A stretch of DNA of 64,000 bases. Source: a bacterium. Its GTDB lineage: Bacteria > UBA10199 > 2-02-FULL-44-16 > JAAZCA01. Positions 1-7,930 of this stretch are shown here, one piece after another (within the stretch, counting starts at the first letter, position 1; each line of letters begins with the position of its first letter). Position numbers and translations under genes: made by a program. Below the pieces are notes generated by a model that was not told where the DNA came from, ran no database searches, and saw only the letters and a program-made list of their open reading frames with translations. The stretch spans positions 127,897 through 191,896 of the forward strand of contig JAJZQH010000003.1 of NCBI GenBank assembly GCA_021810905.1, written 5' to 3'.

Positions 1-428
1 ATACTCGGAAAATATTTCTGGATATCGCATTTCAAGACATAAGGCCGCTTTTTCGCATAGGATTGGAATCGCTCAATGGCCGCGTGCGTCCCCTTGCCTT
101 TGCGCGTGGCATAAGAATCATGAATGAACGTCGGATCAAATATCGGCTCAAGGACGTTGTGAATCGCGTGATGAACCACGCGATCGCGGTATGGCGCAGC
201 GCTGATGAGTCTTTCCTTGGGTTCGTGAATAACGAAATTCCGATATTTGCCCGGTTTATACGTCTTATCGAGAAGCTCGCGCCGGAGAGACCAGAGCTCC
301 CGTTCAAGCTGAAAATTGAACCTTGCCGTGGAGCCCTTAAATCGCTTTCCGCGCTGCGCAAGCCTCGCCGCCTTGAGGAGATTCTGAAACGATACGATAT
401 CCTCAAAGAGGTGCTTATGCCTTCGCAT
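1..428 (-). CDS. DGR-type reverse transcriptase, N-terminal part (cut by window edge)
   Basis: Reading the minus strand from an ATG at 426-428 gives about 142 residues of a retron/group II-like reverse transcriptase. The motif RDRVVHHAI lies near residue 85, and the end runs into the first palm motif (CDIQKYFPSI), after which the window stops. The catalytic YxDD box would lie outside. In DGRs this enzyme copies a template repeat RNA with adenine errors and the cDNA replaces the variable repeat of a target gene. The start overlaps the avd stop by 14 bp, so the two are probably translationally coupled. Assignment to a DGR, rather than a group II intron, rests on the avd and target neighbours. 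Confidence 0.88.
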   Translation of the reverse strand, partial: MRRHKHLFEDIVSFQNLLKAARLAQRGKRFKGSTARFNFQLERELWSLRRELLDKTYKPGKYRNFVIHEPKERLISAAPYRDRVVHHAIHNVLEPIFDPTFIHDSYATRKGKGTHAAIERFQSYAKKRPYVLKCDIQKYFPS

Positions 429-768
429 CCCTGCCCCTCTGCTGTTTGATCCAGCCGCCAAGTTGCACGCCGAGCTCGTTCATCATTTTTGAGATGACTT
501 CGTAGCGGTGCAGATTGATGAATTTCAAATCCTTGCACATGCGAACATAGTACCTCGCTTGCTCGAGTCTGATATTCGCATGCTGCAGTGACGCGATCTT
601 GTCGCGGGAATAACACGCCGACAACAGCGACTCAAACACGTCGAACACCGCCTGTTCAAGACGCTCGCCAAGCAGATATCTGTCCGAGCGCGGGAATTTC
701 GCCACTTGCGGAATGAGATACATCAGGAAGTCATAGGTCTTTGCTATAATCTGTGGAGCATTGGTCAT
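415..768 (-). CDS. avd: Avd-like DGR accessory protein
   Basis: A 117-residue, mostly helical protein with a four-helix-bundle pattern typical of Avd/S23-like proteins. Recognisable stretches are KTYDFLMYLIPQVAKFPRSD near the N-terminus, LLGERLEQAVFDVFESLL in the middle, and ARYYVRMCKDLKFI before the last helix. In known DGRs Avd forms a pentameric basic barrel that binds the reverse transcriptase and template RNA and is needed for mutagenic retrohoming. I chose the ATG at 766-768 because the upstream extension runs through a hairpin and is not protein-like. No clear Shine-Dalgarno sequence precedes it. It sits between the target gene and the RT, the usual DGR order. Confidence 0.85.
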   Translation of the reverse strand: MTNAPQIIAKTYDFLMYLIPQVAKFPRSDRYLLGERLEQAVFDVFESLLSACYSRDKIASLQHANIRLEQARYYVRMCKDLKFINLHRYEVISKMMNELGVQLGGWIKQQRGRDAKA

Positions 769-774
769 AAAAAT

Positions 775-806
775 TTGGATGGTCGCTCCAACGAGCGACC
801 ATCCAA
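775..806. other. 13-bp perfect hairpin between DGR target and avd
   Basis: Arms at 775-787 and 794-806 are exact inverted copies (TTGGATGGTCGCT and its complement) around a 6-nt loop. It begins about 25 bp past the stop codon of the target gene. DGRs of the BPP-1 type need a hairpin or cruciform just downstream of the variable repeat for efficient homing; position and shape fit that role. A short T run follows on the minus strand, so it could also attenuate transcription into avd. Confidence 0.7.
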
Positions 807-831
807 GGGTAAAAAACAAAAGTGTAAAAGT

Positions 832-1821
832 CTACAAAGGTTTTCCGGAGTCCTGGGCCGCAACCCACCGAAAGCCGAAACTGTCGTGGCGATCATCGGG
901 ATCGTCGTAGCCGCGATGGGCCGCCCGGAGGTACTGCGGATCATCGTTGAACCACGAACCCCCGCGAAGCGATTTGCATTTGCCGCTCGTGGGACCTGTC
1001 GGATCGATTACAGCATCTTTTGAATACGGCACGTACCAGTTCTGCATCCACTTCCATACGTTTCCGCACATATCGCCAAGGCCATTCGCAAGACGGGGAT
1101 ATGTTCCTACATCCGCAGTAGTCTTTGCACCATAATGAACTTGGTCCTTCGTCGGCCTCCCGCTCAGGGTCGCATATTCGCGCAGCTCGCGAGCGTCAAT
1201 CACGCGCGTAGAAGCAGTTCTGTATGGTTCATGACCGTTTCCGTTACTTGCTTGCATAACCCGCGCGGCATATTCAAACTGTTCTTCAGTCGGCAGCGCC
1301 CCGCCATGAAGAGATGCATATACAAATGCCTCATACCAACTCACCTCCACTACAGGTTGCCGGGGACGATCAAAACCGCATGAAGGACGGTGATCCGGAA
1401 TCTCCACGGACTTCAGCGAATCCGCGAAAGTCCGCATTCCGCCGATCGTCACGATATCTCCTGCCCCGGGGAAAAGCTGACTCACGGGTATCTTGTCCAC
1501 CGCTGCTCTCACTTCTTTTTCGCTGCCGCCAAGGGCGAGCACTCGCTCGACGCCCGTATCGGGATGCGCTCCGATCAGGGCTACGCGCCGGTCTCCAAGT
1601 GAATCGACGAAATTTCCGTATTGCCCATTCGTCTCATCATCCCTGCGCATCTGAAACGTAGAGATAGTGACTTCATGCACCGGCTTTTCGTCCGGTTCTC
1701 CGGTCTCAGAACCCATGGGAAACGTGCCGCCTTCGATCGTCACGAGCTCGTCGTTGGCGACTGCCGCTGCGAAATTCTGCGCGGCAAATGCATTCAACTC
1801 TACCCCGGCAAGGACTGTCAT
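832..1821 (-). CDS. DGR target: FGE-sulfatase/C-type-lectin-fold protein
   Basis: A 329-residue protein with the formylglycine-generating-enzyme-like (SUMF1) fold: GGTFPMGSETGEPDEKPVHEV near residue 36, VEVSWYEAFVYA and LPTEEQFEYAAR in the middle, and GDMCGNVWKWMQNW then LRGGSW near the C-terminus. FGE-type lectin folds are the commonest DGR targets, with variable residues displayed at the C-terminal end, as here (residues 291-315). I chose the ATG at 1819-1821 because GGAGGG lies 7 nt upstream; a TTG 15 bp earlier is less likely. There is no obvious signal peptide, so the protein may be cytoplasmic or exported another way. It probably binds variable ligands. Catalysis is unlikely. Confidence 0.85.
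   Translation of the reverse strand: MTVLAGVELNAFAAQNFAAAVANDELVTIEGGTFPMGSETGEPDEKPVHEVTISTFQMRRDDETNGQYGNFVDSLGDRRVALIGAHPDTGVERVLALGGSEKEVRAAVDKIPVSQLFPGAGDIVTIGGMRTFADSLKSVEIPDHRPSCGFDRPRQPVVEVSWYEAFVYASLHGGALPTEEQFEYAARVMQASNGNGHEPYRTASTRVIDARELREYATLSGRPTKDQVHYGAKTTADVGTYPRLANGLGDMCGNVWKWMQNWYVPYSKDAVIDPTGPTSGKCKSLRGGSWFNDDPQYLRAAHRGYDDPDDRHDSFGFRWVAAQDSGKPL
877..951 (-). other. Core of the DGR variable repeat (VR)
   Basis: These bases encode residues 291-315 of the target. Conserved FGE positions (P295, R299, A300, A301, R303, P308, R311) are interleaved with polar or aromatic residues (F291, N292, D293, D294, Y297, H302, G304, Y305, D306, D307, D309, D310, H312, D313, S314, F315). 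All sixteen of the latter use codons ending in C or T, and relatives often have Asn there. This is the footprint expected when AAC/AAT codons of a template repeat are scrambled at adenines. The template repeat is not in the window and would lie beyond the left edge. VR borders are approximate. Confidence 0.7.
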
Positions 1822-3393: not shown

Positions 3394-3418
3394 CGTATCT
3401 CCCTTAGTGAATCAGTAG

Positions 3419-3591
3419 ATAAGTGCATAGAATTCATTTCAGGACCCTGCGAGGGAAGGATCGTCCTTATGGACGCTGGGGAGGGGAACCGCGCTGAAAG
3501 CGCGGGGAGGGGGTTTCCCCCTCCGAAGTTGCGTCCAGAAGGACGATCCGTACCGAGCAAGAGGGTCCTGAAATGAATTCTATGCACTTAT
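3419..3591. repeat. Palindromic repeat family A, copy 1
   Basis: A 173-bp palindrome made of an outer stem of nearly 30 bp, an asymmetric internal loop, an 11-bp inner stem continuing into GGACGC/GCGTCC, and a core with two small hairpins (CCGCGC..GCGCGG and GGAGGGGG..CCCCCTCC). Copies 2 and 3 lie at 21772-21938 and 43203-43363 with the same core but different, compensated stems. Its right arm contains the last codons and stop of ispF; its left arm ends 25 bp before cysS. Confidence 0.92.
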
Positions 3592-6877: not shown

Positions 6878-7163
6878 AATTGCCTCCTTGGTCAACCCTA
6901 CGCACCTCTTATATGCAAGCCCCTTGCCAGATGGAGACACATACAACTTGATGATATATTTAAGTATTATTGGAGTGAATCCGGCGATCTGGCGGTCTGT
7001 TACACCCAATAAAGGCGATTTCGGGGCATCCAGACCCCGATATCAGCAAGCAACGCTGAACCTGAATGGCCAACCGCCAATGACGCTTTGCTGGCATCAC
7101 TGGAAGAAAATTTGCCGGCCCTGTGTATTTGCAATCGGTATCAAATCCGCTTATCTCTCCCTC

Positions 7164-7769
7164 ATGGGCTACGAGAGAAAAGACCACTTCTACAAGCGCG
7201 CGAAACGTGAGGGCAAGGCATCGCGCGCCGTGTATAAACTTGCCGAGCTGCAGAAAAGATTCAAGCTGGTCCGCCGGGGGGACGTTGCAATCGATCTGGG
7301 CTGTGCGCCTGGGAGCTGGATGCAGGAGCTTTCGGCTATGGTGGGTCAAAACGGCAGGGTCATAGGTATAGACCTCCTCCCCCTCAAGATCTCGCTTCAG
7401 CCCAACTGCAGGTTCATAAAGGGCAACGCTGAAGATGAATCTTCGATTTCAGAGATCCATGATCTTTGCGGAGGCAAGGCAGATGCAGTGCTCTCGGATA
7501 TGTCTCCGAATCTATCCGGTATCGCATTCGCCGATTCGTATCGTTCGTACGAACTGTGCGTGCTCGCACTCAACCTCTGCTCCTCGCTGTTAAAACCCGG
7601 CGGCAATTTTGTGGTGAAGATCTTCCCAGGCGAAGAGTTCGCGGGCTTCATCGCAGAGCTCAAACGCAGATTCGAAGAGGTCGCAACTGTGATACCGGAG
7701 GCCACGCGCAAGACCTCTTCCGAGAGATACGTCATTGCCAGAGGCTTCCATATGTCAGGGGACCTCTAA
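7164..7769 (+). CDS. rlmE: 23S rRNA 2'-O-ribose methyltransferase (FtsJ/RrmJ)
   Basis: A 201-residue SAM-dependent methyltransferase expected to methylate U2552 of 23S rRNA. Motifs visible are YKLAELQKRFKLVRRGD, the SAM loop DLGCAPGSWMQEL, the catalytic-tetrad segments SDMSPNLSG and VVKIFPGEE, and the C-terminal KTSSERYVIARGF. The start at 7164 begins at GYERKDHFYKRAKREGKASR, the usual family N-terminus; the ribosome site is weak. The stop codon lies within the left arm of the 7758-7883 inverted repeat. Confidence 0.95.
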   Translation: MGYERKDHFYKRAKREGKASRAVYKLAELQKRFKLVRRGDVAIDLGCAPGSWMQELSAMVGQNGRVIGIDLLPLKISLQPNCRFIKGNAEDESSISEIHDLCGGKADAVLSDMSPNLSGIAFADSYRSYELCVLALNLCSSLLKPGGNFVVKIFPGEEFAGFIAELKRRFEEVATVIPEATRKTSSERYVIARGFHMSGDL

Positions 7770-7883
7770 GAACCGTCCAGATGCAAGGCGCCCGACTGAG
7801 GCCGGCCGAGTCGTACTTGAAGTACGTCGCAGGCCGTGCCGATGGAGGGCAACGCAGCAGATGGGCGGTTATTAGAGGTCCCC
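7758..7883. repeat. 126-bp imperfect palindromic repeat on the rlmE stop
   Basis: The 22-nt outer arms at 7758-7779 and 7862-7883 differ at only two positions. Inside is a CGTAC/GTACG hairpin flanked by GCAAGGCGC..GCAACGC-type imperfect arms. The TAA of rlmE (7767-7769) is part of the left arm. Similar sequences are familiar as interspersed repeats in deltaproteobacterial genomes. Confidence 0.85.
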
Positions 7884-7930
7884 AAAAAAAAATAAGAACC
7901 CGCGATGCCAATAGGCGCCGCGGGTTCTTA
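7883..7930. terminator. GC-rich hairpin with A-tract
   Basis: An A-run (7884-7892) followed by TAAGAACCCGCG/CGCGGGTTCTTA arms (7893-7930). It has the form of an intrinsic terminator read on the minus strand, yet no minus-strand gene ends here. It may belong to the adjoining repeat. The rest of 7931-8085 shows no gene. Confidence 0.5.

Follow-up and report, generated by a model that had tools for sequence, protein, structure and literature searches.

A tetranucleotide repeat in the reverse transcriptase gene of a chromosomal diversity-generating retroelement as a probable on/off switch for targeted hypermutation

The window, the whole 64,000-nt stretch of bacterial DNA analysed here (G000:C12:127897-191896), carries at its left edge a diversity-generating retroelement (DGR) that continues beyond that edge. 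Its parts are listed below with positions counted from base 1 of the window (the base before base 1 = 0), so that negative positions lie to the left of the window.

832..1821, minus strand: DGR target gene, 329 aa, FGE/C-type-lectin-like fold (ORF; Pfam FGE-sulfatase PF03781, E=9.6e-44)
853..970, minus strand: variable repeat (VR) core in the 3′-terminal part of the target (aligned with the TR, 15 A-site changes and 0 non-A)
843..865, minus strand: IMH-like VR end (VR ...CCCAGGACTCC vs TR ...CCCAGCACTCC)
775..806, minus strand: hairpin between target and avd, 14-bp stem and 4-nt loop (fold z=-8.5)
415..768, minus strand: avd (accessory variability determinant), 117 aa (Pfam bAvd PF22296, E=2.8e-19)
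1..428, minus strand: 5′ part of the reverse transcriptase (RT) gene, running off the left edge (RVT_1)
-139..-104, minus strand: (CAGC)9 tract, 105-140 bases left of base 1 (C12:127757-127792)
-623..-144, minus strand: 3′ part of the RT gene with YMDD, in another frame (C12:127273-127752)
-765..-635, minus strand: template repeat (TR) (C12:127131-127261)

The order of target, hairpin, avd and RT on the minus strand, read from ORFs, Pfam matches and the hairpin fold, is the canonical one described in the initial annotation from the window alone, and the Pfam match bears out the FGE fold that it assigned to the target. When the contig is extended leftwards, the YxDD motif sought there appears as RYMDDF, and a TR lies 3′ of the RT, 87% identical to the VR. 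Differences between the two repeats are adenine-linked as predicted, with 15 of 31 adenines changed in the 118-nt core and none of the 87 other positions. Every predicted element of the DGR is thus present. The RT itself was only partly as annotated: the gene and its YMDD are real, but beyond the window edge (CAGC)9 interrupts its open frame ahead of the catalytic motif. A DGR-type RT with YMDD, an A-only TR/VR pair, an Avd gene and a C-type-lectin/FGE target with a C-terminal VR and a downstream hairpin make the locus a DGR by its parts, with mutagenic retrohoming suggested by the A-specific footprint in the sequence.

The DGR sits between cysS on one side and a phd/PIN toxin-antitoxin pair and uvrB on the other (all named from sequence). 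No phage genes are in sight around the locus, so we read it as a DGR of the cellular kind. Left of the window, at L004 6209-6894 between the TR and uvrB, lie the Phd/YefM antitoxin and its PIN toxin partner. On the other side, a palindromic, MITE/REP-like repeat of ~173 bp (window 3418-3590) separates cysS from ispF and has about 15 or more dispersed copies in the genome, most of them at 75-89% identity.

Relatives in the phylum share this DGR anatomy and carry other VRs. Their targets are also FGE proteins, and hairpins of different sequence occupy the same position between target and avd. The G/C difference at the repeat end (CCCAG-G/C-ACTCC) is seen again in these relatives and fits an IMH/IMH* pair. 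Five complete SSR-bearing DGRs could be compared, namely the locus described here, G035, G005a and two loci of G040 (G040a and G040b). The RT is out of frame as assembled in each, and the changes between VR and TR are A-specific in all five: 15 at our locus, 17 in G035 together with one non-A change at the very edge, 21 in G040a, 16 in G040b, and 19 within the first 100 nt in G005a, beyond which lies an indel-like stretch. A long-dead RT should leave random VR/TR differences, and A-specific differences in all five out-of-frame DGRs argue that the RT was working recently. A whole-genome search of our genome recovered only one VR, apart from a 20-nt chance match.

The tract that breaks the RT consists of nine uninterrupted full CAGC units (C12:127755-127792 with an extra half unit) and lies in the reading frame between RT motif 3 and motif 4 (GIPIGNLTSQ). 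RVT_1 matches the RT as two pieces in different frames; YMDD is present, yet the RT is split across two frames in the assembled allele. With the nine assembled copies, translation ends after 190 aa. In computed alleles, 7 or 10 copies give an RT of 348 or 352 aa, and 6, 8, 9, 11 or 12 copies give products of 186-213 aa. Upstream of motif 4 the C half (GIPIGNLTSQ...YMDD...) contains no start codon from which it could be translated alone. Nine copies exceed the 5-copy threshold for tetranucleotide phase variation (PMC5953494). Elsewhere in the genome there is no further CAGCx5, and no other tetranucleotide tract of at least four copies was found in the 427 kb searched. The best PDB match for both RT halves is 8ub7, a reverse transcriptase of the BPP-1 type of DGR and the nearest solved RT. 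In the alignments to 8ub7 only residues 175-177 lie between the two matched halves, so changes in loop length at this point should be tolerated.

This type of RT occurs in 9 of 46 genomes of the phylum, and in 8 of 11 same-phylum DGR RT loci a tetranucleotide-type tract lies no more than 50 nt ahead of motif 4. The tracts of the relatives lie directly before GIPIGNLTSQ, as follows.

G035: CAGCx10.5
G036: CAGC, with contigs that end within the tract on both sides
G040: TCACx8 at one locus and CAATx12 at the other
G005: CATCACTCx4.6
G020: CATCx8.5
G045: CATCx2 then CAGAx4
G029: degenerate CATC remnant
G039: no tract, RT unbroken

The units vary among relatives (CAGC, CACT, CAGA, CAAT, CATC and CATCACTC), while the place of the tract and its 5′ flank TTGCA are kept, and the encoded loop between motifs 3 and 4 consists of ASQP, THSL, INQS or HPSI repeats. 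Complete tetranucleotide loci, with their different units, range from 8 to 12 copies in a comparison between species with one genome each. Some tracts contain two units, and the change from CATC to CAGA within the G045 tract points to unit turnover in a live microsatellite. The unbroken, tract-free RT of G039 indicates that a DGR can exist here without the tract. Across the 46 phylum genomes CAGCx5 is found only in three DGR RTs. A tract before motif 4 was seen in none of 75 DGR-type RTs from other genomes and none of 79 from viral contigs (154 in total, from other phyla or viruses), giving a Fisher p of about 1e-9 to 1e-11 uncorrected for kinship. In nearly all of these RTs the frame is uninterrupted, unlike the frame at our locus. 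The closest viral relatives are 47% identical at best and have no tract before motif 4, and no related RT was found in the three other genomes of the family. In the tree the phylum's RTs cluster together (SH-aLRT 93), a grouping consistent with one origin of the tract followed by unit changes and losses.

These observations suggest that the locus is a chromosomal DGR with a phase-variable RT, in which the SSR would act as a stochastic on/off switch for targeted hypermutation (probability about 0.8). Slipped-strand mispairing in replication would change the CAGC copy number. At copy numbers equal to 1 modulo 3 (7, 10, 13 and so on) a full-length RT would be made, and the VR would be overwritten with adenine-mutagenised TR cDNA; at any other copy number the RT would end before the catalytic YMDD, leaving the target frozen in its current variant. 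Individual cells would thereby pass stochastically from diversification to a silent, stable state and back. The switch is supported by the tract itself, the frame break, restoration at 7 or 10 copies, the conserved place of the tract, the coding constraint seen in each RT half and VR changes confined to adenines. As in known cases of SSR phase variation, the tract is uninterrupted, lies within an ORF, exceeds the threshold and sets the frame by its copy number, with both sides intact, and its length differs among relatives, here between species. We infer that the tract changes its copy number in living populations, that an RT of full length works, and that selection acts on the switch.

In all five complete loci the two RT halves are in different frames, the N half being displaced by +1 at three loci and by -1 at two, and in each of them every third copy number is computed to give back an RT of 343-360 aa. 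None of the five is in frame as assembled, a point against the switch; were all three frames equally frequent, this would happen with a probability of 0.13. The sole in-frame tract is CAGAx4 of G045, in an RT that lacks its 5′ end and target. The extension to the phylum, which we consider likely, is that most cells have the RT switched off and that rare slippage moves lineages into the diversifying state and back, so that the mutability of a receptor-like gene would be bet-hedged in a heritable and reversible way.

The absence of an in-frame complete locus would also be expected if the RT were a pseudogene fixed in the off state, with the tract a passive relic of a dead DGR, and decay is clear in the clade. 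In G029 the tract has degenerated, the RT is off and the target is lost. The two G020 copies, G020a and G020b (L114 and L117), have separate deletions joining the start of avd to the RT. The second G005 copy (L118 about 7000-7900) is a relic in which the target end and avd start are left, an insert replaces most of the RT and no TR is visible. These decaying copies, with target, TR or RT missing, look different from the five complete loci. Both RT halves are stop-free, and differences between species by codon position (1242:766:2639 in the N half and 2791:1664:4869 in the C half) fall mainly at third positions. Judged from these counts, and from a pN/pS of about 0.16-0.42 across both halves with synonymous sites near saturation, purifying selection holds on both RT halves across species. 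Together with the 15-21 changes per VR/TR pair, virtually all of them at adenines and a sign of recent homing, this leaves a dead RT very improbable. No second DGR RT able to act in trans is present in the genome; the only candidate, on C19, is of the group II intron type with YADD. This second RT (L005 10106-11125, G000:C19) adjoins a superoxide dismutase-like gene.

Activity despite a broken frame would also be accounted for if programmed slippage on the repeat, in translation or in transcription, let the out-of-frame gene yield the RT. Some loci would need a shift of +1 and others one of -1, neither the unit nor the length of the tract is constant, and the tracts are tetranucleotide rather than homopolymer; shifts of both signs with no shared slippery sequence make programmed frameshifting unlikely, and we give it little credence. 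Two separate polypeptides might instead assemble into an active enzyme, as each half alone matches its part of RVT_1. Such a split RT is hard to reconcile with the C half, which in three of the five loci has no ATG, GTG or TTG start in the open stretch before motif 4, and we regard it as extremely unlikely. An assembly or consensus error in the repeat is just as implausible: most of the genomes are draft and fragmented (at least three are MAGs), and in G036 the assembly breaks off within the tract from either side, but the tracts span only 32-48 nt, within usual read length, and the same pattern recurs in genomes of separate projects and at the two G040 loci. Finally, the tract may switch the RT and still be an unselected microsatellite tolerated in a permissive loop, a reading that overlaps with the favoured one and differs from it on selection only. 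Loop length between motifs 3 and 4 does vary among DGR RTs, with the short interval in 8ub7 as an example, and G039 does without a tract. Against this, the same place is kept through >30% protein divergence while the units change, and such repeats are very rare elsewhere, with a single tetranucleotide tract in 1.02 Mb of control DGR loci. We therefore consider mere tolerance unlikely, and favour a selected switch.

Among the surface and methyltransferase genes of Haemophilus and Neisseria, phase variation by tetranucleotide SSRs is well established. The tetranucleotide tract in a type III methyltransferase homologue of H. influenzae (De Bolle et al. 2000, as cited in PMC5953494) resembles the one described here, with an uninterrupted in-ORF tract, 8-12 copies and a frame set by copy number modulo 3. 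The product switched here would differ, being a retroelement RT that mutates another gene, and the present case is known from draft genomes alone. Another parallel is offered by Salmonella mutL (Chen et al. 2010, PMC2955026), in which a tandem repeat acts as a switch: short-repeat slippage occurs in a mutation-rate gene and mutability itself is switched; mutL modulates mutability genome-wide, whereas DGR mutagenesis here is limited to one variable repeat. With the DGR of Bordetella phage BPP-1 and with cellular DGRs (Roux et al. 2021, PMC8144416; ‘Targeted hypermutation of putative antigen sensors’ 2024, PMC10907252) our locus shares the RT, Avd, adenine-mutagenised TR/VR, IMH-like end, hairpin, FGE/C-type-lectin target and canonical order. 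Whether the pattern of cellular targets reflects stronger control of RT activity was left undetermined by Roux et al. 2021. If the tract does toggle the RT, it would offer a simple genetic answer to how cellular DGRs avoid the constant loss of good variants. SSR phase variation would then be joined in one switch with adenine-directed retrohoming, a separate mechanism of diversity. Open full text, judged by titles, abstracts and term counts and with subscription journals and preprints mostly outside its range, yielded no report of a phase-variable DGR RT. Surveys that demand an intact RT frame may drop such loci as fragments.

Two broken frames outside the phylum were considered and rejected as counterparts. 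One (L053) has a rearranged 5′ end instead, and in the other, a Riflebacteria DGR RT (L097), the frame breaks without a qualifying tandem tract. The Riflebacteria break (L097 about 1830-2000) falls just before motif 4, near an A7 run.
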